Source of the DNA: Ceratodon purpureus
Taxonomy: Eukaryota; Streptophyta; Bryopsida; Pseudoditrichales; Ditrichaceae
Assembly (NCBI GenBank): GCA_014871385.1
Contig: CM026423.1
Span: forward strand, 10,161,952 to 10,225,951
Reading direction: 5' to 3'
DNA: 64,000 nucleotides
Part shown: positions 6,062 to 50,305 of the stretch, piece after piece
Numbering within the stretch: the first letter of the stretch is position 1
Layout of the letters: every line of letters starts with the position of its first letter
Notes under the pieces: generated by a model
Seen by the model: only the letters and a program-made list of their open reading frames with translations
Told to the model about the DNA's origin: nothing
The model's database searches: none
Program-made: the position numbers and the translations under genes

Positions 6062-6066
6062 AGTGG

Positions 6067-6136
6067 CACCCGGGTGTTACATGTCAGTGCTCCCGAGGTC
6101 GCATTCTTCTAGAACCTTTCTAGAACCTTGCTAACA
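6067..6136 (-). repeat. Truncated 5' LTR (70 bp)
   Basis: Matches the first 70 bases of the 3' LTR (3171-3240) with a few substitutions, including both copies of TTCTAGAA. It ends at CCCGGGTG and passes straight into integrase coding sequence. CAAAC at 6137-6141 is the outer target duplication. Confidence 0.85.
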
Positions 6137-15818: not shown

Positions 15819-18800
15819 CAAAGCAAAGCGAACGGAATGTTTGATGCCTTGGAGGACCTTGCCGCTTGTCAGATGCTTGAGACACTAGATTACAATCTGT
15901 CCTATAGCTCTTCAAACTGAAGGTCTAAGTAACTCTAATTCTGATACAAAAATACTCATTACGGATTGATCCTTCGGACTTATAGTCATGCTCATTGGTG
16001 AGCAACTGAGCTTCTACTAGGGATCAGTAAAATTTTACAAGAACACTGGTGATACCAGGGGTTCAGATGACTGGTTGATACTAAATTTGTCTCCAGCCTA
16101 AGACATATATGATTCCTATGATCTTGTCATCGATGACCCCCCTGACTTCCAGTAAGTTGCGTTCTGTCTTCGCAACTGATGATACATTTCCATGCTCTTA
16201 ACCGGAAGAGAATTCTGTAGAGTAGCAAACTGTGTGTACTGCCTTAAGAGTTGTGTAGGTTTGCAATCGGAGATCTGAACGCTGGCTTCGCAGAGACGTT
16301 GTTTTGGATATGGAAATGCTTATGTTCGGTTAGTTGATAACCAACGGGAAGGTCCAGACCTCGCTCGATGAAGATTATGAGCAGTATTAGTATTGGTTGC
16401 TTCATGGGACCGCACCGAGACATTGTTGCAAACAAAGTGCTGAACTTCCCTACGACATGGAGGTGTGGCATATCAAGATTGTATTGAGTTTATGAGACTG
16501 GGCTCAACAGAAATGCATAGAGCATGGAGGAACTCAGGCTGGTTCTTTCATGCCGAGACCGATCGCATGAAACATGGCCACTCGCTTGCAGAGGAATCAA
16601 CACATTGATGCTGCCAGTTGCAACATTTACTGGACTGGGTTCGAGTATTACTTTGTGCAGGTCAAAGTGGCGGAAGTTGTAGGATGTCAATCCAACCTTC
16701 ACCTATATGTGGGAGTGATAATTGAAAGAATTTGTCATTGGTAGTGAAATTGGGCATTGAGAATCATCGTGATTTCATTGCTTGGCCGGATGGTTTGATT
16801 GACAAGTTATATCTTTGGAATGACCATTAGAAGCAATGATTTAAAGTTTCGAGCCACAGAGGGTCAGCCTTGGGGTGTCCGCCTCAAATTGAGCAATTGA
16901 TCAATGTTACCTTTACTTGTTTTGAGTAATTCATGGGTATATGCCCAAGTGTCCATACGGATGAAAATCCATTAAACGAGAAAGCTTAGGCTGCAAACAG
17001 TTCAGAAAGTCAAAATTCTGTACAGACAGAATGATACAAGCTATTGAAGTATAGAGTAAAATTGAAACAATTCCTAGATCACATCAAACTAATCCACTAA
17101 CATAAACTCAATGCAATACTCAGTAATGATGACTAAACACATGATTGGCACACATCCATTACTAAATCTCTATTAAGAACTCCTCTTGGAAGCATAAGCG
17201 AGAGGGATCCGAAGTAGAAGCACTAATCACATTTTCATCAAAGTAGAACGGGTCCAATTCAACCATCTCATTTCCTCCAAGGGCTGGTGCTCGCACAGTG
17301 TTCTAATTCATCTGGTTTCATCCACTATGAATATATTGCCTTTAGCATTCATTACATTCCCATCAACATTTGTCAAAGAGTCTGCCGGAACCAAATTTGT
17401 GGTGTTGCCCGCACACTACATGTACGAAAATTGCACTAAGAACGCATCTTGACTTCCTTCCAACGATAGCAAGTGTGCATCATGCAAAGATCCACAATTT
17501 GTGTAGATGGTCTGCCAGGCATGAAAGAAGATGGGAAGAGCAACTTTTAAGATCATGCAATTAAAGATCAAGTAAAGATCAGGTAATTTAGGAGAGAAGA
17601 GAGTCAATGTATAATGATGTACCTTTCAGGGACTCAAGTCTCCACAATCCATTGTCTTAAGCATATTGAGCAACGATTGTTACAGTCGCATTTATACGAC
17701 AACTTCGTTTAGCACTACAGCAATCTTGGAATTGTTCCAGTGAGCACCAAAATTCTCATTTACTTTCAGTTTCCTCTTTTACTTTACTTCTCAAGTTTCA
17801 TTTTTCTTATTCATTATGTTGTGCACATATACCATATTGTTTGGAAAGACCAGAATCGCTTACTATAAAGTACACCTAAAGCCATATGTCTTTTATATGC
17901 ATGGTGAAGGGGTGCTTCTGCCCCCTGGAGATAACATGTCTGTGAAGGTTTACTTTCTGTCCGTGGCCCACTCCATGGGTGCAGAGTGAAATTCCCCGAG
18001 CAGTTCAAGACAGAGATGCCGTTCCGAAAGGGAAGACCTGCTCCGGGGCCTGTCCAGTGGCGTAGAAAGTTTGATTACCGGTCCCCGAGCAGTAGCTTGC
18101 TACAGCGCAGCCATGCAACCCCACCCGCAAGGGTGAACAGAATGGGGATTACTCTCACCATGCCTACTTTTTGAAATTTATGGTAGGTTCTTATTTTTGA
18201 AATTTATGGATTTTTCTACTTGTTGAACAACTCCAAATTTTTTGCACTACCCCTCAAATATTTTTGAGATTTTTTTAATCTTTTTTAAAAACTAATATTT
18301 GAAGTCCTCTGTAGTAGAAAAAATTCATTACATGAGGATGCAAAAGTTTATCACTCTTTTCTGTAAAGATGTAAAAATTTAAAATTTAAAATTTTTTAAA
18401 ATAAAATAAAATAAATCTTTATTACATAAAAGTTAGATTTTTATTTTTTTCTCTTCTTTTTTTCTACTTTAAGAATAGATGTAAACCTTTGTTTTGATCG
18501 TGTAAATTCATATTCTAATTAAAATTTATTTTTCAAAAAATAAATTATCAAAAATATGAAATAAGTAAAAAGCAATAATATGAATCCATGTTCTTTTTAC
18601 AATTCTTTTTAAAATACTACACCTTTTTTGTCAACTTGCTAACACAGCTACAAAAAGCAGAATGAGAACATGGATGTACTACCTTTAACTTTAGTTTTAT
18701 AGCATTCCATTTAACTAGACAAGTCTTTAATTGAGAAGTTCTTAAAAGCCATCATTGTCGTTTTAACTTTAGTAGTGACTATATACACTCCAAAGCGCAA

Positions 18801-21234: not shown

Positions 21235-24067
21235 TCAAAGAAATTGTAAAACACTTACATTACCGAGATTTTGAATCCGAAGCGCCTCATGGTACTCTTC
21301 AAAACATGTTCCACTCTTGTAACACATGAACTTGTTATCGCAAGATGGGCAATAGTAATGAGGCCGCTTTTCCTCTTGAGATTTGGACTTGTTGCAAACC
21401 ACACACGGTAATCTCCTCTTCGAATATAAAGGAAAGCATAATCCCTGTCTCCGTGGCGGAGGAATCATATCACCGTCGTCACGTCCGGTCCATGCATGTA
21501 GTAATGCCTCACACAACTTGGTCCTGAACTGTAAATGTGTAATCGGTCTCCTAATTGGTGTAGCACGTTTGCATTTGTCAACATAGATCAAAAACATATT
21601 GACAACGGTCATATCCAGTAGAAAAAAGAATACGCGATGCCACCACTTATGCGACCTGTTCTGAGTACAATACGATGCCCGTAGTTGGTCAGCTACATCT
21701 ACACCACGCATGTGAGTGGTATACTCCAAATGCATTGGAGATGTGGGAATATCCTCTCGAATTGCCCCGTTCCTGCGCGGTACGGTCGGCACAAGAAAAC
21801 CCGGAGCAATTGTTGGCTGCGCATGTGTGGACAAAAGTAGAACAGGTTTCTTGTCCTTCCAAACCACGGATGACATTTGCCGTGACTCATGCATTCTCCA
21901 ATCCATCCAACCTTGCTCCTTATTTTTGTACAACTTTGTATTCTTCAATACAAGCGGTACACCAATACGGTTTGACCTCATAGTTCCTCTGGCATAAATA
22001 TGATTTGCTAAAAGATCTTTGAGTAGACCCACGCTTGTGAAAAAATTATCCATGGCTATAACATGACCTTTTCCCCCAATATTCGATGTCAACTGTACGA
22101 CCACATTGTGAGCAAGCTTGGGCTCTCCCCGTGCCATGCGATGTTCCTCCTGCACTACTGGACTCTTCCCACAATATATGGAGAAATTCCATACGAACTT
22201 CGAAGCAGAGCATGCCAAACACCAGACTTTGACCCCCCATTTCTGTGGTTTCTGAGGCATATACTGACGCAAGGGACAATACGATCCCTTGTACCGTATC
22301 ATCATTTCATCAATAGTACAGAATTGTCCCAATGACCATGCGCCTTGACATTTCTCTCGAATGCTGTCTACTAACCATTGAACTTGCCCCAACTTGTCAT
22401 AACCGGGTAGCCCTTTCTCACTAACATACGTTGTAGGGTCACTGATATGTAGACACTTGGTCAAAACAATGAAGCGAGCACGAGTCATAACCTTCGAAAT
22501 AATTGAGCAGTGGAAAATCGAACCTTTATTATGCCAATAAGACTTTATATTCGGTTGACGTTTCATACCCATATAAAGCCAAATCGCCAAGAATGCTTTG
22601 AATTCACAAATTGTAAATTCTTTCCACCCCATTCCGCCCATCGTATTTCCATCGCTGCGAATCTCCGTCGCATACCGATTAGTCTCCCGTACAATATCCC
22701 GTAAAATCTCGTGAGTCCAAAATATCTCAAACAATTGCAGCATTGATGGAAATGTCCTTCCATCAAATACCGACAGTGATACACCATCAAATTCCACAGG
22801 CTCCGGAACATAGGTGAAATGTGTCTTATTCCATGTCACATCACGGTATAAATATTTCACACTACTAGGATCCCCCAACTCTTCATCGTCATTTTCCTCA
22901 TCACTAAAAAATAAATCATCCTCCTCTTCATCACTTCCAGTCTCCAACTCCGGTACAACAAAATTTGGAACCCTCTCTCTCCGCCGTGCCATGGGAATTC
23001 TTTCTCTCCCAACCCATGCTCTCCCCTCCATCCTCTCTGATTCTGCATTTTCCCCATCCCCCCAAGCAAACGTTGCCCCCATCCCCCCCATCGCCCCTTG
23101 CCCCCATTGCCCCGCCCCTTGCCCTCCCAATACCCCATCCAGATGGTGCTGCGGCCCCAACTCCTCCCCAGTACCCTCCCCTCCCCCCAACCCTCCCCCC
23201 ATACCCTCCACCCTACCCGATACCCAGTCCATACCCTCGGGAAACACTACCCCCCCGACCATACCCTCCGCCCTCTCTGATATGACCCCCATACCCTCGG
23301 GACCCCCACCCATACCCTCGGGACCCCCGTCCATACCCTCCTGACCCCCGCCCATACCCTCGGGGCCTCCTTGACTTCCCAGCCCATTGGGATTCACCCC
23401 CGCCTCTCCTGCGATGCAGGCTGCCGACGCCGCAGTGGCTGCGACTGCCGCCGCAGTGCCGAATGCACTCTCTGCTTCCACCTCACCTGAAGTCCCTCCT
23501 ACATCTCGTATTGGTCTTTGGTGCTTTTTTTTTTTCTTCATTCTTGCATCATATTTCTCCACATTGTAATCTGTCTCTTCCGGCCATAATAATTCCTCCA
23601 AACATCTCCCCTCTTCATATGCATAGTCACCATCTTCGAAACTGTCTTCTGAAAGTTCCTCACATGAACTTTCTCTCCCAATATTGTCTAGACATTCTTG
23701 AGAATCAAAGAAATCGTCATTCTCCTCTCCTATTGCTGAAAACAATAATGTGTAAATGTCGTCTTCAGTATCTAGAGGTTCTATAGGAAGTGTGGATTGA
23801 GGAATTGGAGGTGCATGTGGAGGAGGAGGTGAATGTACAGGTGAAGGTGGGTGAGGGAGGAGTGCATTAGAAGAAGACAATTGTAGGCCATGTAACCTAC
23901 TGCTACGTCTTGGAGCCTCAAGGAAGCTCTCCTGCAAACATAAGACACAACAATTTGTGAGAAATGGCTTCTAATCAGTAACTCAAGCATTGTGAATACA
24001 TAACTCTACCTCTCAAGACATCACTCACCTCCTTCCCTCTCCATGAGTTAGAGCGTTTGCGTGGCAT
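21235..24067 (-). CDS. piggyBac transposase (DDE_Tnp_1_7 family)
   Basis: Cuts and pastes DNA at TTAA sites. Two exons: 24067-24029 (ATG, MPRKRSNSWRGKE) and 23931-21235, giving about 911 residues. The N-terminal third is low-complexity: proline-rich, acidic, then Gly-rich tandem PEGMGGG units at about residues 200-260. The catalytic domain starts near residue 375. The three expected aspartates are visible in CTIDEMMIRYKGSY (about D554), VIAMDNFFTSVGLL (about D641) and HMRGVDVADQLRASY (about D758, with D761 nearby). The C-terminus has the cysteine-rich zinc finger CVVC...HYYCPSC...C...C...H. The last codons overlap a GTAAGT (NLGN|VSVLQFL), so one more short exon is possible. No frameshift or internal stop is seen. 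Confidence 0.93.
23180..23375 (-). repeat. Minisatellite inside the piggyBac transposase ORF
   Basis: Degenerate tandem units of about 15-24 bp built on CCCATACCCTC on the plus strand. They encode EGMGGG/PEGMGGG-type repeats in the N-terminal linker of the transposase. Confidence 0.8.
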
Positions 24068-27237: not shown

Positions 27238-28752
27238 ATGAGATCCAAGGCAGTAAGAGCCTAGAGGTAACAATGTGGGGCTTGCTGGTGGGTGTCGCAG
27301 CTCGCTTCCTCAGTTCCGGGGTGGTGATGCTCCCATTCAGATACTGCAAAGGTGCCTCCAGGTCAGTGCATTTCACTGCATCTCAAGGATCTCGCGGCAC
27401 GTCTAGACGATGAAGTTATTGACGAAGTTAGACGCGCAAAAACTAAGAACCATATTCTGATGAGATTTCATTAACAAGGTCCATCAGTCGTTTCGGAGTG
27501 TTCCGAGCACTGTCGTGACAACCTGCCATTTCGATAAGGTCCCTCAATTGATCATGGGAAATTGCTCACTCGAAATTATTATGCTCGGTTGGCTTTGCTT
27601 CAAGAACTGCTGACATATTATCGTGAGCTTTTACACTCAAAAGTTGACCGGAAGTTCTAGTCAGCCTCATTTTGAAGACTGAAGTAATTGTGATCATCAT
27701 AACCTTTCTAGAGAAAGGTCAGATTTCAATAAGAGTATAATCATAGGCTGACGGTCAACATAATTTAAAAAGTTTGTGTGCTCAGACAGCCAAGAGTGGT
27801 TTCTTCAAAACTGGCTACTACCCCAGATCAGAAACTCTAGTCCGAAACACTTTGGTATCATCACCGCGCACGTCGAAAGAAAAAGTACTCATCATGGTAC
27901 TCATCCCTCATATAGTCGATCCATTTTTTTCCACATGGAGAATTTCAGATAGAGCTAATTACAGATTGATAATCATAGGGATTCCGAGTGCAAAGTTTTT
28001 TTTAAATGCTGTCTCAGATTTTTCTATGGTGTTAGGTCATATCAGCACGGTAAACTAAGTGTGGTGCATGACATAAGTATCATCACTGACAACATTTCCC
28101 AAAACAAATTCAAAAAAATGTTCATGGAAGCTTCTTCCTGCCCAGGTAGATTCTTCAGGTAAAACAGGTTGAACAGCTGCCCGTGACCCTTCCTCTCGGC
28201 AATTTTCAGCGCTCTATGTGCTACCGGTTTCAAGCACACGAGTGACTCTAGTCAATTTGCCTTCTAAGATCAACAACAACCACCGCTCAGACCCTTAGAT
28301 GTTCTGTAAAGTTTATGATAGTTTCAGCCAGCCGGCTGATTATCAATTCTAATCATCGCGGTTCAAAAAGGAGAAAGACAGACGTACAACACTGCTCAGG
28401 TTAAATTTGTGTTGGAAACGACGAATTCTCTTCAACGCTTTCTTGCGAAAGCTAAAAGCGAGCTGGGATTATCGAATCATCACTGCAGTCCGGTACCTCT
28501 AGGAGCATAGAAACGCACAACATGCAAAGGTACAAACAGTCACGCAGACCTACATAGAAATCCTAGTCAGAACACGCAATCACCTTCGGTATATTGCCGA
28601 AGCAAGATCTAAGACCTGATAATAAATGAGGACGAGGACACCAAACTGAAGCCCAACAAACCTCGAGCCAAGACGGCGATGAGTAACTTAAACGAGGCCA
28701 GAGAGGGGAAGGCTGCTGGAGAGCGCATGCGGAAGAGAGATGAGGAGGACAT
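27238..28752 (-). CDS. Hypothetical multi-exon gene (weak support)
   Basis: Not recognised. A plausible first exon 28752-28662 begins MSSSSLFRMRSPAAF and reads SLASFKLLIAVLARG, like an organelle presequence. It splices in frame to 28615-28584 (GLRSCFGNIPK). Further possible coding segments on this strand are LSQESVEENSSFPTQ (near 28450), VAHRALKIAERKGHGQLFNLFYLKNLPGQ (about 28229-28140), ISHDQLRDLIEMAGCHDS (about 27557-27475) and KCTDLEAPLQYLNGS...LPWIS (27391-27238). Splice sites between the later pieces are not settled, so the exon chain is a guess. The MITE at 28909 lies about 160 bp upstream of the start. Confidence 0.35.
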
Positions 28753-37951: not shown

Positions 37952-38130
37952 CTCGCCACTAAGGGCGGGGCAGAAACGGGGGAGCGCGGATGCTGCCCCC
38001 GCCCTCGCCCTGCCCGCATCAGCCCCGCCCCGCGGGCCCGTCCCTGCAGCCAGCCCAGCTCGCTCCCCGCTCTCATGGGTCGCCCTCGCCCGACGCCGCT
38101 CCACAGCCCGACTCCCTCCCTATTATTTTT
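37952..38130. repeat. Left GC-rich arm of the outer element
   Basis: CpG-rich sequence starting CTCGCCACTAAGGG, inverted relative to 50094-50305. It ends in a T-rich run at 38120-38153. Confidence 0.7.
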
Positions 38131-38278: not shown

Positions 38279-38318
38279 CATTAGGTGTAATTTGGGGTCT
38301 CCAAAAGGCCGTGTAAGC
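38279..38318 (+). repeat. Left 40-bp terminal inverted repeat
   Basis: Identical to the reverse complement of 49687-49726. Confidence 0.95.
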
Positions 38319-39219
38319 GGCACGTGAGAGAAAAAAACGGGCGCTGCCCGCGTACTTTTTGACATGGCATGTGAAGTGCCACCGTGGTGCCAGCAACCGC
38401 CACGGGGGCTCGAACCAATGACCTCCGAGCGAGGCGTGTGGAGGGCACATCTACAGTGCCGGGCTGACAGCGGACCGGCGGAGCAAGGACCGGATCCCGA
38501 GCTGACTGCTCATGTCAGCAAACTTTCTGCCAGCACTTTGAACGAGGAAATTATGAGTCCGCCCACCTACCTCCCCCACCGACGATGAGTGAGTGCCGAA
38601 GTTTTTGAACTTCGTAGGGAGAGTGAGTGCAGCCAGCAGGTGTTCGGCGCTACGGGAGAAGCGACGCACTTGGGAGATTGGTTGCAGCCAGCGGGAGTTG
38701 GGGCTGAGAGGATTCCAGCTGATTTGGGAGAGTGGGTGTGGGTTAGTGCGAAGGGAGAGACACGTGATTGTGGAAATTCTGTGCCGGCAGCAAGAGTTAG
38801 CACTTGCTGGGAGTTGACCAGGTGATTTGGGGTTGTGGGTGTTGTTCATGTAGCGAATTGTGCTTGAGTAGTTACTTGCTGAATCAAGGTGGAAGTGCGG
38901 CTTTCTTCGCTGTCAACTCAATGTGCCGTTTGCTGCCAGCGAGCTACAAAACTAGGTAATTTTTTTTCAATATGATCAATTTCCTGTCTTGACATGATCC
39001 AAGCTTTTCTGCCTCCTGGGGGCAACGTTGTGAGTAGGCATGAATTCCTCAAATTTCATCTCTGATTACAAACTCAGGATTTTCCTCTCCTCAAGTGCTT
39101 AAACTATGCAATCTTGATTTTCTATGTGCTGGCAGCATGTTCCCTCGCCTTGGTTGGTACGAAAGGGAGGTGTTATAGTTCATTTCTGTGTCTCCCAATA
39201 CCTTGGGGTTTAGGGAAGC
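38319..39219. other. Left sub-terminal non-coding region of the 11.4-kb element
   Basis: Contains several variants of the recurrent CTGCCAGCA word (near 38527, 38629, 38683, 38783, 38931, 39127). A tRNA-like GGTTCGAGCCC box lies on the minus strand near 38408-38418. It probably holds the promoter and leader of the orphan gene at 39220. Confidence 0.55.
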
Positions 39220-40458
39220 ATGGCCAGACGGCCAAAATCGATAGTTCAGAGCGTAATTTTGCACAACGATCAAGATGTCCACGGCAATTGGATCCCAATG
39301 AGGCTGGACCGGGATTCGTGGGTTCTGCTGCAACCAAAGTCGGAAGGGCCTTGGGGTAGAGAGGCAAGGCGGCATGGTGGAGATAATTTTCGAGGGGCCT
39401 TCAAGGCTCAAATCGTGGATTTCTCATGGACACCTGGTGTGCGTGGAGCAAGCAACCTGGATAAGGTGCTTGTGCGGCATGCGTATCAGCCTCGCCAATT
39501 AAGCCTGGATCCCGCTGTGGCAGCAAGTAGGCAATGCACGGCAAACTACCTATACTCCTCGCACTTTGATGATTGGGTGCACCCCACGTCTATCATCAGT
39601 CCCATTCTTGTGCTCCATGCAGAGATTGGGGAGGCGACGCGGAATGGTCGAAGCCATACAGACTTGTTGGACACAGGTACATTCTTCCTTGGTGGCGTAT
39701 ATTTACCCCCCGTAGAGCCTACGTTGTACGGGAGGATAGAACCAATCCCCCTCCCTGGTTTCAACGACGTGGAGTGGCCTTTGCCAGACATGCACACCTC
39801 CAAAGCCTTCAGGACGAAGCTGACAGCAGATTTTTCGAATGCGATGAAAGCGTCCACTGGCAGTAGTTTCGCCCATGAGCAATGGTTTATGCCTGTCCAT
39901 GTTATGGTGGACTTGTTTGCGATCGCATGTGATAGCATTCGGCGGACTCCTACACTCTTCGTTCTACACTCTCCGTCGGAGGCACTCCTAAGTAGTCTGA
40001 TGAATCCAGGATGGGCTGAGAAGTTTCACATTGGCCAGGATGTTATCAAGTGCGTTGTGAATAGGTCCAGCGTTGTCTTCAGGTACCATGTGGGCAGGCA
40101 AACACTATACACGAGGTTCCAGTATACAAGGTTTCGGGGTGCTGCCAACAACAGATGGGATGCGATTGACCATCTACTAGAGGTGGAGATGGTAGAAGTC
40201 TGCTGTACATTTAGAGGGAGACCAATGCCAGCATTTGAAGTGGGCAAGGACTGGCCTGTATCCCACTTGCGCCATGAAATTGCAATGACGCTCGGAGACG
40301 ATGATCCCAAAGAGTACAACATGGTTCTGGTGGAAGGAGACGGTTCACGTGAAAAAAATGTACATGTAAGCAGCATCACGCCATTGGTTTTAGATATGGA
40401 AGGTGCTGCTGCTTGGTATCAGCATAATTGTACTAACGCATTCTATTGGAGGCATTGA
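39220..40458 (+). CDS. Orphan protein of the 11.4-kb element (412 aa)
   Basis: Not recognised. An uninterrupted ATG-to-TGA frame. It starts MARRPKSIVQSVILHNDQD and is soluble by eye, with no signal peptide or membrane segment. Features include WVHPTSIISPILVLHAEIG, PPVEPTLYGRIEPIPLPGF, a basic aromatic stretch FRYHVGRQTLYTRFQYTRF, and a C-terminal part (FEVGKDWPVSHLRHEIAMTL) that could resemble a small ubiquitin-like fold. The last is only an impression. It is transcribed away from the other two genes of the element and is the only long plus-strand ORF there. It may be an accessory transposition factor; no function is claimed. Confidence 0.65.
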   Translation: MARRPKSIVQSVILHNDQDVHGNWIPMRLDRDSWVLLQPKSEGPWGREARRHGGDNFRGAFKAQIVDFSWTPGVRGASNLDKVLVRHAYQPRQLSLDPAVAASRQCTANYLYSSHFDDWVHPTSIISPILVLHAEIGEATRNGRSHTDLLDTGTFFLGGVYLPPVEPTLYGRIEPIPLPGFNDVEWPLPDMHTSKAFRTKLTADFSNAMKASTGSSFAHEQWFMPVHVMVDLFAIACDSIRRTPTLFVLHSPSEALLSSLMNPGWAEKFHIGQDVIKCVVNRSSVVFRYHVGRQTLYTRFQYTRFRGAANNRWDAIDHLLEVEMVEVCCTFRGRPMPAFEVGKDWPVSHLRHEIAMTLGDDDPKEYNMVLVEGDGSREKNVHVSSITPLVLDMEGAAAWYQHNCTNAFYWRH

Positions 40459-41102
40459 TGTAGATCAACATACGTAATGAGAGGCGTGTACTTCTTGGTG
40501 AGGTGGCGGTTCCCAAAACCATCAAGATAGTCGAGGTGTAGGACAACAACGTTTTCACCACGGCATTAAGGTGATCTATTAGTGTCTTCACAAGTCTGCC
40601 TACAGTATTTGAGATGACTCCATGTTTCACTAGACCAATGCCAGTATGATTATTTACACTTGTAAGGGACTATGCTTTGTGCTTGACACATCATGTATGG
40701 TACATATATGGTCAATCATGTAACCTTCCCCCTTGATGAATGAAAGTCTTCTTCTAGAACATGTTGCTGTCAGCACACATTAGGGTTCACGACCAAGGCG
40801 ACTTCCATACCATCACGACCAATGTGGCAGCCACATGTACAAGATAGAAATAAAAAAGGATAACATTCATCATAAGTATCGAAAAAAAATGAGGTTCGGT
40901 TTTTTTAAAGTCTGACCCCAACACCCCCCCCCCCCCCATCGGAACTACTTACACAGTGCTGCCAGCAAGTACTTGCTGGCACCGCAGCTGTGAAAATAAA
41001 GTCGAAAATCAGGGCAGCAAATGCAAATGCAACGTGGCACAAACTAATAGCCACTAATACTAATCCGCTATGGCACTATGAACCAAAAAAAAACCACAGA
41101 CT
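40459..41102. other. Convergent spacer between the two accessory genes
   Basis: Contains a poly-C run (about 40925-40937) and a large palindrome around 40957-40981 made of two opposed TGCTGCCAGCAAGT half-units. No gene. Confidence 0.6.
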
Positions 41103-43013
41103 CTAAGCCTCTACTGAGGTCGCGATGGCATCAACCAGCTTCTCAAGGGCAGCTCCAGCCGGGTCTTGAGATGTCCCCCCGGACTCGGTGGTACTGGAGC
41201 TGAGTCCACCACCATGAGTGGCTGTGTCCTCGGCCTCCCGGCGTGGAGGGGCTTGTGTCCCCCATTGGAAGCTGAGGTCATCTGACTTCTGGGTGCTCGC
41301 AACACCATCGCCATCCCCTCCATCTGTTGGCAGCACGGCCGCGGATACTAGGGGCTGAGCGGAGATCTTGGCGATGACATACGGACCCGAAGCCTCGGAC
41401 TCCTCCAGAAAGCGAGTCTTCTTCTTCACTTGGTTTTCCTCCCCCAAAGGAGGAGAAGAGCGCTCAGCGGCTCTCTTGCTGCCAGCAACGGGGCTCTGGA
41501 CGTCTGGGGCTCCCACCTCGGACTTGAGAACCTCAAGGAGGTGCTGCAAATCCGCTTGAGCCGACTCATGCAGTGGAAATCCCCATTGCCCAAGCCATCC
41601 CCCACTCAAGGAGCGGCAGCAACGGCTACACTTGGCGTCAAGGGAGAAGACAACCTCAAACATGCAATGTGGGTGTGCCAAGCAGCCGCAGTTCAAGGGT
41701 ACACAAGCAGCGTCAACAAAGTACCGCGCACAAAAGGGGCAAGGGTCGGAAACCTGAATGGGGAGGGCTCGAAACTCGGATGGCAGGTGTGGGAGCACAC
41801 TCTTCGGGCGAATGAATGCCGCTGCCAGCTCCAGGGTCATGATCTCCACGCTAAGAGCACCAATCTCGGCCTTGCACCTGTCTATGTCCCCCATCAATGC
41901 ATCCATCTGCTTCTCCTTGTTGTCAATGCGAAGCTGGGCTTCTTCGACAGCCTTGCTCGCATTGGCCATCTGATCACCACCTAGACAGGCCAGAGCATCC
42001 AATCGCTTCTTCTCCGCCGTGTTGCCAGCGGCCGCGGCTATCTTGCTGGCAGTACGGTGGGCAGCAATCTCCTCATAGAACCGGCCCTCCTCATCCTCCT
42101 TCTCCTGCATAAAGGTCTTCTGGTTCTTGATATCTCCAAGAAAAAACTTCCTCTGAGCCTCCTTCTTCGTGAGGTCGGCCTGAAATCTCGCCTTCTTGGC
42201 CCTGGCTTGGTCCAGCTTCGCCTTCGGATCCGTGCTGGGTCGGTCTTCATCCTTGCTGCCAGCAAGTGAAGACTTGGGCAAGCTCTCCTCCTCAGTGATC
42301 AAGGGCGCCTTCGACTTGAGGTGGCTTCGAGTGCGACCCCGAGCTCCCTCTGCTGCAGGCGCTCCCTTGCTGCTGCTCCCCGTAACAAGGACCCCGTGGC
42401 TAGGTCCGATGCCGACTCCCTCAATGGCCATGACCGTGTTGCCAGCAGAGGGTCTGTCGTCGATGTGGCCAGCGAGCACGTCGATGAGGGCCTCGATCTG
42501 CTCTCTGAAGGCTGGGGGTGTGAGCTTGAGAGGGTTGCGGGCATCTTTCTTATCACGTGCCTTCTGCAAGGTCGCGGCTTTCTCTGCCCAGTTGACGTCT
42601 TCGCCCAGCTCGAAGGTCAGATGGCAGCCTCGAAGGAAGGAGGTACCAAATGTCCCGTTGTCAGGGCCTTCACCTCCATACACCTTCGCATGCTGGAGTG
42701 TGTAAGCCTCGACAGCCTGCTTGTCGGTGCAGTCAGCAATGTGGTGGCGCCCTCCATGTCGTTCCGGCCACCTCTTAATGAACAAGGATTTCTTGCATAC
42801 CTTGTCACTGCTGAGCTCGGTGAAGGATATCCCTTCCTTGCAGAGCCCAAGTGCACGGTTGAAGAAATCGACGTCGTAGTTTGCGCTCTTCCTACCAAGA
42901 AGAAAGGGCGCAATCACCACGGCCTTGTCCACCACATGCTGCGGTAGAGCCTTCAGGTCGAAAGGGAGGTCCCATTGCGTGAGAACACCGTCGTCCTTGC
43001 TGCCAGCAACCAT
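41103..43013 (-). CDS. RING-like cysteine-cluster protein of the 11.4-kb element (636 aa)
   Basis: Starts at ATG 43013 (MVAGSKDDGVLTQWDLPFD) and ends at TAG 41103. The N-terminal domain (about 1-175) contains KVCKKSLFIKRWPERHGGRHH and TFGTSFLRGCHLTFELGED. The middle (about 230-390) is highly charged and probably coiled-coil (KLDQARAKKARFQADLTKKEAQRK...). A cysteine/histidine cluster follows near 430-480: CPFC, then CGCLAHPHC, then CSRC, spaced like a variant RING finger. The C-terminus is low-complexity. VAGSK or LAGSK occurs three times because the element's TTGCTGGCAGCAA motif is read in this frame. A ubiquitin- or SUMO-ligase-like role is possible but unproven. Confidence 0.7.
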   Translation of the reverse strand: MVAGSKDDGVLTQWDLPFDLKALPQHVVDKAVVIAPFLLGRKSANYDVDFFNRALGLCKEGISFTELSSDKVCKKSLFIKRWPERHGGRHHIADCTDKQAVEAYTLQHAKVYGGEGPDNGTFGTSFLRGCHLTFELGEDVNWAEKAATLQKARDKKDARNPLKLTPPAFREQIEALIDVLAGHIDDRPSAGNTVMAIEGVGIGPSHGVLVTGSSSKGAPAAEGARGRTRSHLKSKAPLITEEESLPKSSLAGSKDEDRPSTDPKAKLDQARAKKARFQADLTKKEAQRKFFLGDIKNQKTFMQEKEDEEGRFYEEIAAHRTASKIAAAAGNTAEKKRLDALACLGGDQMANASKAVEEAQLRIDNKEKQMDALMGDIDRCKAEIGALSVEIMTLELAAAFIRPKSVLPHLPSEFRALPIQVSDPCPFCARYFVDAACVPLNCGCLAHPHCMFEVVFSLDAKCSRCCRSLSGGWLGQWGFPLHESAQADLQHLLEVLKSEVGAPDVQSPVAGSKRAAERSSPPLGEENQVKKKTRFLEESEASGPYVIAKISAQPLVSAAVLPTDGGDGDGVASTQKSDDLSFQWGTQAPPRREAEDTATHGGGLSSSTTESGGTSQDPAGAALEKLVDAIATSVEA

Positions 43014-45769
43014 GGCTTCAACACAACCACAAGTTAGTGCTGATAGACAATTATCCACTACTGGAACTCTCTAACTTCTAAGTAGACGAACGGTAAAATA
43101 GACGCGGGAAATGCTTACCCCAAATTTGCTGACAGCAAAGAGTGTAGCTAAAACAATGCCTCTGGCTTCCTGCATACAGTTCATAGAATCTTTTGGATAG
43201 ACACACCTACCTATTACTACTCACGCGTGCTACACTATGTCACTTACAGCAGACTGAGCTCACGACTTCTTGGGTAGCTGAGAATGCAACCAAAGACAGA
43301 AAATCGCATTAGAGTAGGGGGTTTACCTCAATGTTGCCGCGCCCCTTCAGCTCCTTCCTTCGCTCTGAGGTTGTTGTCCCTCCCACACCGACGTCGCTGC
43401 GCCGCACCCCTGTCTCAAGCGCCCCTCCGCAGCACCCTTATGCCCACAATCCGCTCTCAGCATACCCCTCCCAGCTTCGTCCCGCCTTCCTTTACCTCCG
43501 TCTCTCCCCCATCAGCTCTCCCCTCCTTCAACCCCCTTCGTCCCCTTACTACCGACCCTCGTTCCCGAAGCTCTGACTGTGTGACCCTCAATCTCCGAGC
43601 TCCGACTATGCGACCCTCAATCTCCGAGCTCGAACCGTGCTACCCTCGTTCCCCAAGCTCGGACTGTGCGGCCCTCAATCTCGAAGCTTAGACTGTGCGA
43701 CCCTCGATCTCAAAGCTCGGATTGTCCCTCAAGTTCCCTCACCTCCACTCCTCGCGACCTTCTACGCTTCAACCGCACCAGTGTTGCTGCCAGCAACGGT
43801 GTCAAGAGAGGAGGAGAGGAGCGCAGTTGCCCCTCTTGACACCGCGCGGGTTTGGATGCGCGGTCATGGGTGTTTGACCGCGGCATCAATGTACTCCCCC
43901 CTCCAATCGGTCCCATCACATTTATGGCTTTAAAAAAATATCATCAATTCGGAAAATAGGGGAAGATATTGGAATTTTTTTTATATAAAACCAAAAAATA
44001 TATTAAAAAATAAGTAATAATAAGGAGAAAATATAAAAATAAGATGAGAAAAATAAATTAAAAATAAAAAGAAGATAAAAACCCAAAAAACAAATGATGA
44101 AAACAAAGAGAAGAGAATAATCTGAAATTGGAAGGAAAACCAAGTGAAAATAAAAACCGTAATGAAAATAAAACCTTACTCGCCAATTTTAGAAATACTG
44201 GACTTTGGGAAAAAATAAGAAAAGTTGGAAAACTAACTAGATTCAAAAATGAAATGGAAGAAAAAGAAAAATAAAAAAACTAAATAGAAACCAAAACATA
44301 AATAGGTCTAAAATAATGATTGGTGGGAAAATTAAATAAAATTGGTGGGAAAATTAAATAAACACCAAATGAAAATAAAACCTTACTCGGCAATTTTAAA
44401 AATGCTTGACTATTAGAAAAAAATAAGAGAAGTCGGGAAACTAACTAAATCTAAAAATGAAAAGGAAAATAAATAAACATAAAAACATAAATTGGTAAGT
44501 TAGTAACCAAAAAAAGAAAAGGTTTAAAATAATAATCTGTGGGGAAAAAAAAATAAATGGAGACATAATCAAAACCAAATGAAATTTAACCCTTATTTAG
44601 CGATTTCAAAAACACTTACATGAGCAGGAATAAAAATCTAAACAAAAGAAAACATTAAATAATGAAGGATTAGGGAGATGTCCAAAATCTATATGGAAAA
44701 AGAATTAAATGAAGATAAAAGTAATTGAAAAAAATATAGAAAGGGAGAAAAAAGAAAAAAGAAAACATGTATCTCCAAAAAAAGGGTAGAGGAAAAAAAA
44801 AAAAAAAAAGGAGGAAAAAATCCGAAATAAAGAAAAAATAAAAAGAGATAAAAAGCCAAAAAACAAAGGATGAGAGATAAGAGAAGTTGGGAAACTAATT
44901 AAATTTAAAAAAAGAAAAGGGAAGAAAATGAATATAAAAAAACAAATAAGGAACCAAAAATAAGAAAAGGTCTAAAACAATGATTGGTGGGAAAATTAAA
45001 TAAAATTGGGAGAAAGGAATTAATATAATCTTAACAATTATTAACTTTTGATTATCTTAAAAAACCAACAACTATTAATCATGTCTTATCTAATGTACGA
45101 GTACAGTTCATTGTATAGTTTCTGTATCTAGGAAAAATGGGGTAAAGAAAAGGGACAAAAAAAGAAAAGAAATTGATTAGGACCATCACAAAGGTTACCC
45201 AAAAATAACAATTGTTAGGAAACATGAAAAATAAGTACGTGTATAAATTATTATTCATATTCGATAAATTGAAGAATATGACTTGTATAAGTTTATGAAA
45301 TTCTTATAATCTATTCTACTGTAACTCCCTCAGAAAGTGTATTTGATTCTACTATTTCATTTTTAAATTTATTTTGGATATTTCATACTTTTCCTAGTAA
45401 GTAATTTATTCTATTTTTAAATATTTTAACTAATATTTTATAATTTGGGTAAATTTAAAAATATGAAAAAGAAAAAAAAAATTCTAGAAAATTGAGAAGA
45501 GTCTAGAAAATAATAGACTTTCTCTTTCATTTTTCGTGTGTCTTTGAAATAAAAATAAGTGATCTTCAATTTTTTATATTTAGAATAGGAGATAAACATA
45601 GAATTAAAAATTAAAAATAAGAAAATTCAATTAAGAAGTGATGCAACTTAATGGCACCCAGGGTCTCGTAAAAATCTCTAAGAAATATTAAATGTAAAAA
45701 CTTATTAACTAAGATATATGATCAAAAATTAAGAGAACTAAATTTGAAAGCAAGATTACTCTGAGCCTC
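43014..45769. other. Non-coding middle of the 11.4-kb element
   Basis: 43,280-43,900 is C-rich and probably holds the promoter of the RING-like gene. It contains degenerate repeats of a CCGAGCTC/GCGACCCTC type at 43560-43730. From 43,930 to 45,770 the plus strand is strikingly purine-rich (A and G) and carries degenerate long repeats. Confidence 0.6.
44090..45010 (+). repeat. Degenerate direct repeats of about 0.2 kb in purine-rich DNA
   Basis: The string AAAATAAAACCTTACTCG recurs at about 44165 and 44371. GATTGGTGGGAAAATTAAAT recurs near 44319, 44340 and 44984, and GGGAAACTAA(C/T)TAAAT near 44440 and 44890. Spacing is roughly 205 bp for the first pair. Confidence 0.75.
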
Positions 45770-48700
45770 CTAGTCGCTGTCAGCATGTGCAATGTCGACA
45801 TCGGGGGCAATATCCTCCCCGGCACCCTTGTTGCCAGCATCCGCGATGTCCTCATCGTTGTTAGCAGCGTCCCTCTGTTCATCTTCCTCGCCCCCACTGC
45901 CAACCATGTCCCCGTTGGCATTCCATTCCTGCTCTTCTTCCATCATCCAATCTCCTTCGTCCTCCACGACTTCTTCAGGAACATATGCTCGTCCAACACG
46001 CCTCCTCCTTGACCTCCACTCCTCGCAGGCGATGGCAGCGTTTGATTGTTGCCACCGCTCGCGTCTCCTGGACCCCACCATGGCCCGTGCTCCAGCGTCC
46101 GGGTCAGGTACAGCTCCCTGGATCTCCATTTTTTTCCTATATCGATGTTGTATGTTTCGGTACCAATGCTGGATCTGCTGGAGAATCGCACTAGTCCGGG
46201 CTTTCCCACCACCATGGGCTGTATGTGCTTGATGTGCTGCCTTCGCTTGGTGGTGTGATTTCTCCATGCCTTGGCAGCTCCAGACTCCAAGGCTCCCATA
46301 GTGTTCCACAAACCAAGTGGAGTGCCGTACAATTACATGCTGTCAACAAGAAGAAGGAAGTTAAAAGTCGGATACTTAGGTCAAGTAGACGGTTCACTGA
46401 AGAAACACCAAAAGCAACAACAGACAGAGCCATGAGCATACCATATAATGGGTAACATGCTCCTCTCCGAAGGCCTTTAAGTATGCCTTTCCCCACTTGT
46501 GTATCTTCTGCTTGAATTGCATCCGTTGCTCTGCTGTCAGGACCAGTCCTGTCAAATATGGTACGACATCTTCAAAGGCTTGCCACATCTGGTACTTTGC
46601 AATGCGGTCAACCCCACTCCCGGCATTATTATTCTCAGCTTGACATATATCCTTCCAGGCCTTATCATTTCCAGACCAAACGCTTGGCCTAAAAAGCCTG
46701 CTGGCAACGGTACCACTCAAAGAAGGTTTTTGCGGCACGTTTCCAGTGTTGCCACTGAGCTTAGGGTCCCTCTTAATCTCCACGTTTCCACCATGAGCCC
46801 CAATCGCGGACAACGACTTCTCCATCTGTTCAATTGCAGTAGCCCTCAGTCTCTGATTCTGTATGTTCCAAACATACATGATATGCATGTGCACTATCTT
46901 CTCCGTCAATCGAACCAAGGCATGCAATGTACAAATGTGTACTCTGGACAAAGGAATCGGCAGGATAGGCCTCCACCTAGTAGATGTTGTCATGTCACAA
47001 GGTTCCTCAGGTACGCTGCTGGAAAATAGCCCCCCCACCCAGTTTGCTTTACCACGGCTCTTGATGGCAGCGTTTGCCTGGCTTGCTGTCCCCACACTGG
47101 CCTTTATCCTCTTCTGGTCGCAATATATGCAGTTCATTGCACACGACGGCCCTGATTGGAGCCCGTACATACACTTGATCGTCTTCATGTCCGCAGCAAG
47201 ATGCCACTCCACCTGGAATTCTCCAACTTCAGGGACCGTGAGTTTCTCGCCACTTGACTGTGCTGCTATCACAGCCGGGATGTTTGACTTTCCAAATATC
47301 CACGAGAGAACATCGTAGGACTCCTTCTCGACCTGAAACGTGGCAACTGGCCAAATCTCCTGCTCTGATTGTACCGAGAAGTACCTCTCGCGGTCCACCT
47401 GAATGTTAGTGTCCAGAGCCCGATTCATCAACGTGATGCTAACACGTTCAAATTTCTTCTCGTTAATAATCTCTGCCTCATCCAGCTTGAGGACAAATAT
47501 CAACGGAGCCCCTTCCAACTCTGCAAGAATATCCCCACGTGATAATGTTTCTGTAATGCAATCGAATTAGCTTCCTTTGTTAAAGACACACAATTTAATT
47601 GCTGGCACCAAACGAACATTCACCATTGCTGTCAACAAGAGATGAAGAGGATGCATACCTGACTCCGTGATGCAATAGAAGATCACCATGCTCTGCTGGA
47701 CCACCTCAAGGTCCGTGAATAGCGAGTTCTTTTCATCTAAGACCACCTCCTTTTGCTGCTCCTCGGATTTCTTGGTTTTCTTTGACACTGCTGGCAGCTC
47801 CATCCTTCCCTTAGCGTGGTAGTACTGGCCAATGAATTGTGGCAAGTTCGCATTTAGCTCCTGCCGAAGCCTTCTGACGTGGTAGGGACTAAGTAGTATG
47901 TTGGATTTCACATCCTTGGTCAAATCCCGAACTGGAGCCTTCACGGCTTGGTAAATTGCACCATAGCCGCAAAAAGACACCCCTGCTTGGTCGCAGGCAG
48001 CAAGAATATTACTCGGCCCTACACTTTTTCCAATTGCCTTCAGGACGTTACTAGCAATCTTTCTCTTAACATGCTCCATAGATGGCTGAGTTGCGAGGGT
48101 GAGACCTTCATGCCTAGACAGTATCTTTGCTAACGCTACAGCAATTACTGTTTGGGAGGCTTTATCCCCATGAAGTCGCTGCTTCTCATGGTTGACCCGG
48201 TTGTTGTCGTTGACAGCATCCACGAGATGAGGTTGCAAATGCGTCCTAACGAGCTTCACTCTGCGTTTTGCCCACCCTGAACCATGATTCAATTCATGAA
48301 TCCCCCTGAGCGGTCGAGCCCTACGTCGCATCCCCATAGGCGTGTCCTTCAAAGGGCTAGGCCCCTCCGGTAGGCGCTCACTTGCTTGCTGCCAGCGACG
48401 CACCTCGGTCTCCAAGCCCTGCACCGTCACCCTATGATTTCTCTCCATGCTGCTCATCTCGGTTCGAATAGTCTCCAATTCAACCCACAATTGCATGCAT
48501 GTATCCTCAATGTCCCTGTTATGGTCGAGCCTCTCTCGGCTGCCAGCAAGGTCCTCTCTCACCTTGCCGAGTTCTTCTTCTAAATGTCGGCACTGCATCT
48601 CCATCTCACTCCTTGTAGGTCCTCCTCCATCAACGAGACCCAATCTGCGTGCATATCCATACAGACCTTGCTCTCCATGACATATGAATTCTAGGCAATC

Positions 48701-48928
48701 TCGAAGAGTTCTGAATGGAGGTGGCCTCCCTGTTCCTGGATCAACCGGGTAAATGCTGCCATCGACCCACAAGTCAATGTTTGTATCCCCGGCTGCCCTC
48801 CGTCCTGGAAATGTTGATGGGCAGGGTTGCTCGGATCTCAATGAACCTCTCCTAATAAGTGGTGCATAGCGTGCATCAAGCTCAGCACTAACACGGTAGC
48901 TTGAAGCCTCCACCCCTCGTGCTGCCAT
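45770..48928 (-). CDS. Predicted DDE-type transposase of the 11.4-kb element (972 aa, three exons)
   Basis: Exons 48928-47659, 47520-46442 and 46339-45770 join in perfect phase. Residues about 105-190 look coiled-coil (EMEMQCRHLEEELGKVREDL...). A candidate catalytic core begins near 425: D437 in FVLKLDEAEI, D534 in WHLAADMKTIK, a zinc-like CAMNCIYC at 550-557, HICTLHALVRLTEKIV at 618-633, and E809 in WSCQGMEKSHHQAK, just after VIVRHSTWFVEHYGSLG. This order (D, D with CxxC, LH..R..E, then H.....F...G...S.QG.EK) resembles a widespread family of animal and protist transposase-like proteins that I recall but cannot name precisely. The C-terminus is strongly acidic. Its place next to a perfect TIR supports the role. 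Confidence 0.7.
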
Positions 48929-49686
48929 CGACAGTCAAGAATTTCGAAGTAGTGATTCAAGCTCTCAAGGCCCCAGATCGACCTGGAAGTATGCAGAGAA
49001 TCGTTTTTAAGATTGCCATATACCCAAAACCGCAGAGTTCACAACAACCAAACCCTAAACCATAGCCACTCAAGGAAATTGCAGGATCAAATGAATAGCA
49101 TGCAATGTACAAATGCACGACCCAAACTTGTCATAGAGAAATTGACACTTACACAACCTCTTGAGTCCACGGCAGGAGGTGTTGCAAGAACACCCTTCGA
49201 ATGCTTGCTGCTCGAATTTGTAACTGCTGCCAACGCGTATCTGCACAATCATGCTCACTGGTTTAGTTCTCACAATTTCCCTTGACTCTCTCGAATTTCA
49301 CCTGCTAATTGGGTCGTTGGTCCTGCAATACCAAAATTCTACGCACCCAACTTCGATTCACCCCATTCCCAGGTGGGGAGACCAACCTACTGTCGACCGA
49401 GCTCCATGGCTTCTTCCCGTTGTGGCAGCAAACTTCGAATCTTGAAACGGTTGACACCAATCTCCCGTCATCTCTCCTTCGAATCGGGCTTTAACTTCAA
49501 TAAATGGGAGAAGGCGTGGTTCACCAAACAAGGCAGCCACCTCGGCGCCACTAGGCACACCGACCCGCCCCGCAACCCCTTCCCGAGACCATTAAGTTGC
49601 CCTATTAACTCTGCGGGCACCGATCCTGGCACCCGCTGCCAGCGATAGTGCCGCATTTGGGCAGGGAGTTCACCTAGAAAGGGCAG
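48929..49686. other. Right sub-terminal region / transposase promoter
   Basis: Non-coding, between the transposase start and the right repeat. It carries further variants of the element motif (near 49225 and 49635). Short ORFs here are not supported. Confidence 0.5.
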
Positions 49687-49726
49687 GCTTACACGGCCTT
49701 TTGGAGACCCCAAATTACACCTAATG
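49687..49726 (-). repeat. Right 40-bp terminal inverted repeat
   Basis: Identical to the reverse complement of 38279-38318. Confidence 0.95.
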
Positions 49727-49740
49727 ATGGAAGTATCATG

Positions 49741-50093
49741 CACCTAAAAAAATTAAAAAATAAACTGAATTCAATTTGTAATATCCTGTCCCTGTGGCGT
49801 AGCCGCAGTAGTTCCCTACGCCGGAACGGCGTCTTAGGGTTGATGACTCCTTTGTCGAATATTCTTCATCCTCTTTGGGTTTATAACATGTTTTGGGTTT
49901 TAGGTTTAGGGTTTAGGGTTTAGTTCCCAAAATACTAACCAAAACATGTCATAAACCCAAAGAAGATGGAGAATATTCGACAAAGGAGTCATCAACCCTA
50001 AGACGCCGTTCCGGCGTAGGGAACTATTGCGGCTACGCCGCAGGGACAGGATAGTACAATTGAATTCAGTTTATTTTTTTATTTTCTTAGGTG
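49741..50093. mobile_element. Foldback (palindromic) MITE with telomere-like centre
   Basis: 353 bp. The left arm from 49741 (CACCTAA...) is an inverted copy of the right arm ending at 50093 (...TTAGGTG), with about 160-bp arms at high identity. The arms contain CCTGTCCCTGYGGCGTAGCCGC and CCTACGCCGGAACGGCG. The loop holds TTTAGGG units (49900-49921). No coding capacity. It would form a long hairpin as RNA or single-stranded DNA. Confidence 0.85.
49900..49921 (+). repeat. Interstitial telomere-like TTTAGGG units
   Basis: Three near-tandem (T)TTAGG(G)T-type units matching the plant telomere repeat, at the apex of the foldback element. Confidence 0.7.
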
Positions 50094-50305
50094 CTTGGGA
50101 ACGTGGGGAACATTGGGGAACGGCAAGGGCTAACAAAGGGGGCGAGATGGGGATCTCCTCAGCCCGACAGGGAGGGGCGGGGAGGGAAGGGCCAGGGCGG
50201 GCCGTGGAAGGGCGAGGGTCGGGGTGGAGCGGGGGAGGCTGCGGGCAGGGCGAGGGCGGGGCAGCCTCCGCGCTCCCCCGTTTCTGCCCCGCCCTTAGTG
50301 GCGAG
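50094..50305. repeat. Right GC-rich arm of the outer element
   Basis: G-rich on the plus strand and inverted relative to 37952-38130. It ends CCGCCCTTAGTGGCGAG. Confidence 0.7.

Follow-up and report, generated by a model that had tools for sequence, protein, structure and literature searches.

A 64,000-nucleotide stretch of the genome of the moss Ceratodon purpureus (contig CM026423.1, positions 10,161,952 to 10,225,951; hereafter the window) carries an 11,448-bp element, at 38279-49726, that is very probably an autonomous cut-and-paste DNA transposon, with a DDE (Asp-Asp-Glu) transposase of the RAG1/Transib fold and the mechanism proposed below. The element most likely belongs to the Lanisha superfamily. 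RAG1 is the enzyme that shuffles vertebrate antibody genes. A palindromic word scattered through the element, the absence of a target-site duplication and a protein with BAH- and ubiquitin-like parts are new relative to the initial annotation of this DNA, which was made from the letters of the window and its open reading frames.

The outermost letters of the element are CATTAGG...CCTAATG, and copies at unrelated sites have the same ends. The 40-bp terminal inverted repeats (left, 38279-38318, plus strand; right, 49687-49726, minus strand) are 100% complementary to each other, and the window copy keeps all three genes open, which bears out the initial description of an intact, multi-gene cut-and-paste element with perfect repeats. 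The open frames of the genes stood as described, whereas the transposase has 982 residues rather than 972 and a second, small exon of the third gene had been missed. The transposase gene lies on the minus strand, in three exons (47659-48928, 46442-47550 and 45770-46339) separated by GT..AG introns of 108 and 102 nt. Accessory gene 2 (41103-43013, minus strand) encodes a RING-like protein of 636 residues, and accessory gene 3 (exon 1, 39220-40359; exon 2, 40464-40541; plus strand) encodes a protein of 405 residues. Starting 11 bp beyond the right end of the element is a 361-bp near-palindrome (49737-50097; 150-nt arms, 88%), and a 75-bp inverted repeat (93%; 37952-38026 and 50232-50305) encloses both the element and the near-palindrome from outside.

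The RNase H fold that had been predicted for the transposase was found in the structure model, which was built from an alignment of 46 of the 79 transposase relatives and the window's own sequence. The model contains the RAG1/Transib core fold, and RAG1 and Transib matched it by far the best of the solved folds found. The DDE triad consists of D447, D544 and E819 and is accompanied by a CxxC/HxxxxH cluster (C564xxC567 and H794xxxxH799). Exon 1 codes for the N-terminal region, with relatives P0075 to P0079; exon 2, as placed by the alignment and the predicted model, supplies the two aspartates and the cysteine pair of the RNase H core, and exon 3 supplies the histidine pair, the glutamate, an acidic tail and the stop. 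Both aspartates are invariant in all eight aligned sequences, and E819 was found in P0006, P0013 and P0014, those of the relatives inspected that extend that far. P0006, a relative from Klebsormidium, keeps both aspartates, lacks the CxxC and has an aspartate in place of the cysteine of the VHICTLH seen in the other aligned proteins. That this cysteine might stand for a lost catalytic aspartate was considered and rejected, as the second aspartate is the invariant D544. The second splice junction, which follows THYM, is supported by relatives P0001, P0003, P0004 and P0005, because all four stop just past it, as if the predicted frames had entered the intron. On the predicted model, the transposase would be catalytically a DDE enzyme that belongs near the RAG1/Transib/CACTA-type (CMCT) group. 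A search of a viral structure library with the transposase gave no match at E 0.001 or better, a profile search of solved structures gave nothing useful, and pattern scans of viral contigs and of genome contigs gave 16 and 34 pattern matches, respectively, none of which was confirmed.

The element is mobile. Copies at unrelated sites, to which the initial annotation had looked for a test of mobility, were found as end-to-end copies and as short derivatives with differing flanks, and the genome contains 55 exact occurrences of the 30-bp terminal word, the two ends of one copy being counted apart, and none of the reversed word. With the left 200 bp as query, 40 of 1070 first-look candidates were scored and gave 52 matches, of which 40 are places at 93-100% identity and the remaining 12 come from the 40-bp repeat at other ends. 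With transposase exon 2 as query, 111 of 1084 candidates were scored, 85 of them at 84-100% identity (family A) and 26 at 81% (family B); the matches were counted by hand and, as the best-scoring 111, form a biased sample. The 26 family-B copies lie on 12 contigs (C8, C5, C1, C12 and others). A single score and E-value is shared by 21 of them, which probably encode the same protein, and to judge from these matches family B looks like a very recent burst. Contig C6, which makes up 30% of the assembly and which we take to be the large sex chromosome of C. purpureus, holds 52 of the 85 scored family-A matches (binomial P 8e-9) and 5 of the 26 family-B matches (P 0.29). On these hand-made counts, drawn from the best-scoring tenth of the candidates and biased accordingly, family A seems enriched on the large chromosome C6 and family B does not.

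Three family-A copies were read end to end, and all genes are open in the window copy only. In the copy on C9 (11,525 bp; outer parts 96.5-97.2% identical), transposase exon 1 and the RING gene are each cut short by one premature stop. The copy on C13 (13,257 bp; outer parts 98.6-98.7% identical) has premature stops in transposase exons 1 and 3 and an open RING gene; exon 1 of gene 3 is open in both. Between the transposase and the RING gene sits an AT-rich centre (43030-45760; 27% G+C at 44-46 kb) that diverges strongly among the three copies and is 1.8 kb longer in the C13 element. A family-B copy on C8 measures 10,834 bp and has the ends CATTAGGGGA..GCTCCTAATG. We also fetched 20 short copies, of 399-401 bp each, whose flanks differ. 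Both heptamers, CATTAGG and CCTAATG, are exact in 17 of these, the other three being one base off at one end, and the terminal repeats are of the window's 40-bp type in 13 copies (33-40 of 40 bases) and of a second type in seven (29-33 of 40). Two short copies, L009 (C6:100331496) and L022 (C13:8850871), have near-identical bodies and the two different repeat types (CATTAGGTGTAATTTGGGG and CATTAGGAGAAAAATCAGG), as would result from an exchange of ends.

A duplication of fixed size is the usual mark of a DDE transposase, and one of constant length had been expected in the initial annotation; none was found in the flanks of 31 copies. These were the 20 short copies, the window copy, those on C9, C8 and C13, and seven family-B copies that remained after three of the ten fetched were left out, their right end not being at the predicted place. 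An exact repeat of at least 3 bp abuts the ends in none of the 31, and a 2-bp repeat in one. Joining the flanks of the short copy at C10:1839481 recreates a site on C4, with 136 of 140 positions matching and no gap, as expected of an empty site. Another copy, L028, interrupts a Ty3-type reverse transcriptase, and 34 residues across its joined flanks, read by eye, match that of Ty3 without a gap (E 1e-6); the match of the joined flanks to Pfam RVT_1 is weak (E 0.21), and over longer flanks the frame contains a stop. The empty site, the Ty3-type reading and the 31 pairs of flanks therefore suggest that insertion adds the element and nothing else. Two candidate duplications at the window copy were rejected: a 2-bp AT or TA, apparent from the window alone, is contradicted by the other copies, the empty site and the Ty3-type reading, and an imperfect 5-bp pair, ATGTA/ATGGA, is set aside by the lack of any exact repeat of at least 2 bp in the 20 short copies and the window copy. 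The lack of a duplication could be apparent only, if the true element started inside CATTAGG and the outer bases were a palindromic target (AT in CATG or TA in CATTAATG). CAT and ATG are self-complementary and stand at nearly every end, as such a target would require; in the C4 empty site, however, GCAG passes straight into CAATT, and the junction of the flanks contains no CATG and no CATTAATG; no residue is gained in the Ty3-type reading of L028, and we regard this explanation as barely credible. Among the papers listed by a literature search, judged by title and the start of the abstract, there was no fitting report of duplication-free RAG1-like elements, which is not proof of novelty.

A short word sets the element apart from the DNA around it. 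The 8-mer TGCCAGCA occurs 17 times in the element and not once in the other 52.55 kb of the window, and eight sites of the palindromic TGCTGNCAGCA were counted. The 13-bp palindromic consensus TTGCTGSCAGCAA has 9, 20 and 37 sites in the element with at most one, two and three mismatches, respectively, as against 0, 1 and 14 in the rest of the window and means of 0.03, 0.44 and 3.78 in dinucleotide shuffles. A weight matrix at 12 bits gave 38 sites in the element, none outside and 0.54 in shuffles, a contrast that is partly circular, the matrix having been trained on the element. The 20 sites with at most two mismatches, the nine closest included, span 38384-48549 and start at 38384, 38524, 38781, 38930, 39126, 40139, 40764, 40956, 41476, 42043, 42253, 42997, 43126, 43784, 45828, 47599, 47626, 47991, 48386 and 48537. 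Exons as well as an intron and other non-coding DNA contain sites, and those in the transposase fall in two reading frames.

The excess persists when the proteins are held constant. In synonymous-codon shuffles, 1000 per gene, which keep each protein unchanged, the four sites of the transposase (at most two mismatches) compare with 0.17 and the four of the RING gene with 0.84, neither count being reached in any of 1000 shuffles; the single site of the BAH-like gene compares with 0.04 and was reached in 37. With at most one mismatch, the one site of the transposase was reached in 6 of 1000 shuffles and the three of the RING gene in 1 of 1000. The word exceeds what the protein code explains, and synonymous choice favors it in two of the three genes. 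The sites might instead be a by-product of amino-acid repeats, base composition or an expanded internal repeat, and the three perfect sites in the RING gene do encode the same peptide, (V/L)AGSK. The codon shuffles, however, preserve the peptides and lose most of the sites, which moreover extend into an intron and non-coding DNA and use two frames of the transposase, and the sister family B carries its sites mostly elsewhere; an origin as a by-product is thus very unlikely. In the family-B element, 8 sites differ from the consensus by at most one base and 16 by at most two (0.07 and 0.6 in shuffles; 0 and 0 in its 5.2-kb flank). In an alignment that is unreliable in non-coding DNA, family B shows a site with at most one mismatch opposite only 3 of the 20 window sites (41476, 42997 and 47599) and opposite 2 of the 9 in coding exons. 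As the two families have similar counts and few shared positions, the word has kept its density while most positions changed.

The RING-like protein gave no Pfam match of note, and its CxxC..CxCxxHxxC..CxxC cluster, from residue 425, was read by eye. The product of gene 3 had been described as an orphan; it is not featureless, its predicted structure being BAH- and ubiquitin-like. Exon 1, on the evidence of 29 relatives, the model and its fold matches, would encode a BAH-like N-terminal and a ubiquitin-like C-terminal part, and exon 2 (INIRNERR...KIVEV*) was recognized by eye because P0104, P0107 and P0108, the last being M758_UG279200 of C. purpureus, end similarly. As modeled, the protein looks like a BAH plus ubiquitin-like protein and is a possible chromatin reader. 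No fitting report of a transposon with a BAH protein was among the papers listed by a literature search, again judged by title and the start of the abstract and again no proof of novelty.

Two roles for TTGCTGSCAGCAA seem about equally likely: the loading of transposition machinery, as the retention of sites in short copies would suggest, or escape from silencing. En/Spm elements have subterminal TnpA sites, and TTGCTGSCAGCAA could likewise be bound by the transposase or a helper for transposition only, with no part in silencing, a reading to which we give a less than even chance. Nineteen of the 20 derivatives of about 400 bp keep two sites (at most two mismatches) and one has none, as expected if moving, rather than expression, needs the sites; their spread over 11 kb, exons and an intron included, is not needed for end pairing and speaks against a purely mechanical role. 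Alternatively, and in our estimate with much the same prospects, the word marks the element for anti-silencing that it encodes itself, in convergence with what VANC proteins do for the VANDAL elements of Arabidopsis. As far as the consulted part of Hosaka (2017; PMC5735166) describes, VANC21 binds a 9-bp motif that reaches high density in its own element alone and that related copies have gained and lost, a pattern similar to the kept density and changed positions seen here; the moss element also encodes BAH-like and RING-like proteins. By the same partial account, however, VANC motifs are non-coding and often tandemly repeated, whereas the moss sites are single and lie in exons too, and Pfam gave no VANC-type domain, a result obtained with no direct comparison with VANC.

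We propose that the transposase pairs the 40-bp ends and, like RAG1 and Transib, cuts at CA/TG, and that both strands may then be joined at directly opposite phosphates; with such zero stagger, strand transfer would leave no duplication. An element-encoded protein, for which the RING-like protein and the N-terminal part of the transposase are candidates, would bind the TTGCTGSCAGCAA sites, and this binding could serve either to load the complex that carries out transposition or as a mark that protects the element from silencing. In such marking, the BAH/ubiquitin-like and RING-like proteins may be the ones that act on histones or ubiquitin. Tentatively, and as a reading that we hold to be rather doubtful, a moss lineage of the RAG1 fold might combine blunt, duplication-free integration with an address word of its own, independent of VANDAL and VANC, its silencing being blocked by an element-encoded reader of the word, the BAH-ubiquitin-like reader and a RING-like ligase. 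The address word would, in the same joint and equally doubtful reading, be a palindrome spread across exons, introns and spacers, whose positions change and whose density stays constant. If true, duplication-free insertion by an enzyme of the RAG1 fold would give a direct handle on strand-transfer spacing in the family that became the V(D)J recombinase. A word that the element maintains in its own exons by choosing among synonymous codons would show plainly how a transposon can turn its coding sequence into a binding platform; together with the BAH-like and RING-like proteins, the word would open to testing, outside Arabidopsis, a second sequence-specific system against silencing, independent of the first. 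It could also bear on why family A seems to accumulate on the giant moss chromosome.

Elsewhere in the window, an open frame of 911 residues (21238-23970, minus strand) contains a piggyBac-type transposase domain (DDE_Tnp_1_7, E 9e-77). No TTAA-flanked terminal repeats were found around it, and for this reason it is possibly a domesticated gene. The window also holds an RNase MRP RNA gene (17897-18164, plus strand), a snoZ157 gene (27774-27873, minus strand) and broken pieces of a Ty1/copia-type polyprotein (3336-6076, minus strand).

Among known systems, Transib and RAG1/ProtoRAG resemble the element in the predicted core fold, the DDE residues, a CxxC/HxxxxH at nearly the same spacing and ends that begin with CA. 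Transib and RAG make 5-bp target duplications, whereas none was found in the flanks of the 31 copies, and the moss element has two extra proteins, BAH-like and RING-like. With CACTA/EnSpm it shares being a large plant element with the CMCT motifs and short repeat words, as the TnpA sites are; it differs in its element-wide rather than subterminal words. We consider it improbable that the element belongs among the ordinary plant CACTA/EnSpm elements, its ends having diverged and its likeness to RAG1 reflecting the fold shared by the group. The ends are CA..TG, as that would have it, and the 50 structure matches listed include no CACTA transposase or other CMCT member, so that the fold search cannot speak against it. 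The ends nevertheless read CATTAGG and not CACTA, the 3-bp duplication occurs in none of the 31 copies, and neither the transposase exons nor relatives P0006 and P0013 gave a significant Pfam match. Large elements with accessory genes may be rare in plants, as was first noted, yet they are not unknown, VANDAL and CACTA elements being examples. VANDAL elements are Mutator-like and have another transposase. They too are plant DNA transposons with accessory genes and a dense word gained and lost among copies, set apart by words that are non-coding and often in tandem (PMC5735166, in the part consulted) and by the VANC-type domain, which was not seen in the moss element. The initial view that the element fits no superfamily no longer holds: its catalytic core fits the CMCT group, and Lanisha, already proposed as a superfamily, is its most likely place, to judge from the description of that superfamily. 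Lanisha was reportedly proposed by Maumus, McDaniel and Carey in 2020, in Repbase Reports 20:2521; among the papers listed by a literature search for it, Kojima (2025) was the sole one on transposons. Two of these authors work on C. purpureus, and their place in Ceratodon genomics is one reason why we consider this identity the most likely. For the CMCT group, target duplications of 2-5 bp are stated in the part consulted of Kojima (2025; PMC12730594), as against none in the moss element. The same part describes Lanisha as a cut-and-paste superfamily proposed in 2020, with C(2)C and H(3-4)H motifs and a likeness to EnSpm; the element shares with it the cut-and-paste movement and both motifs.

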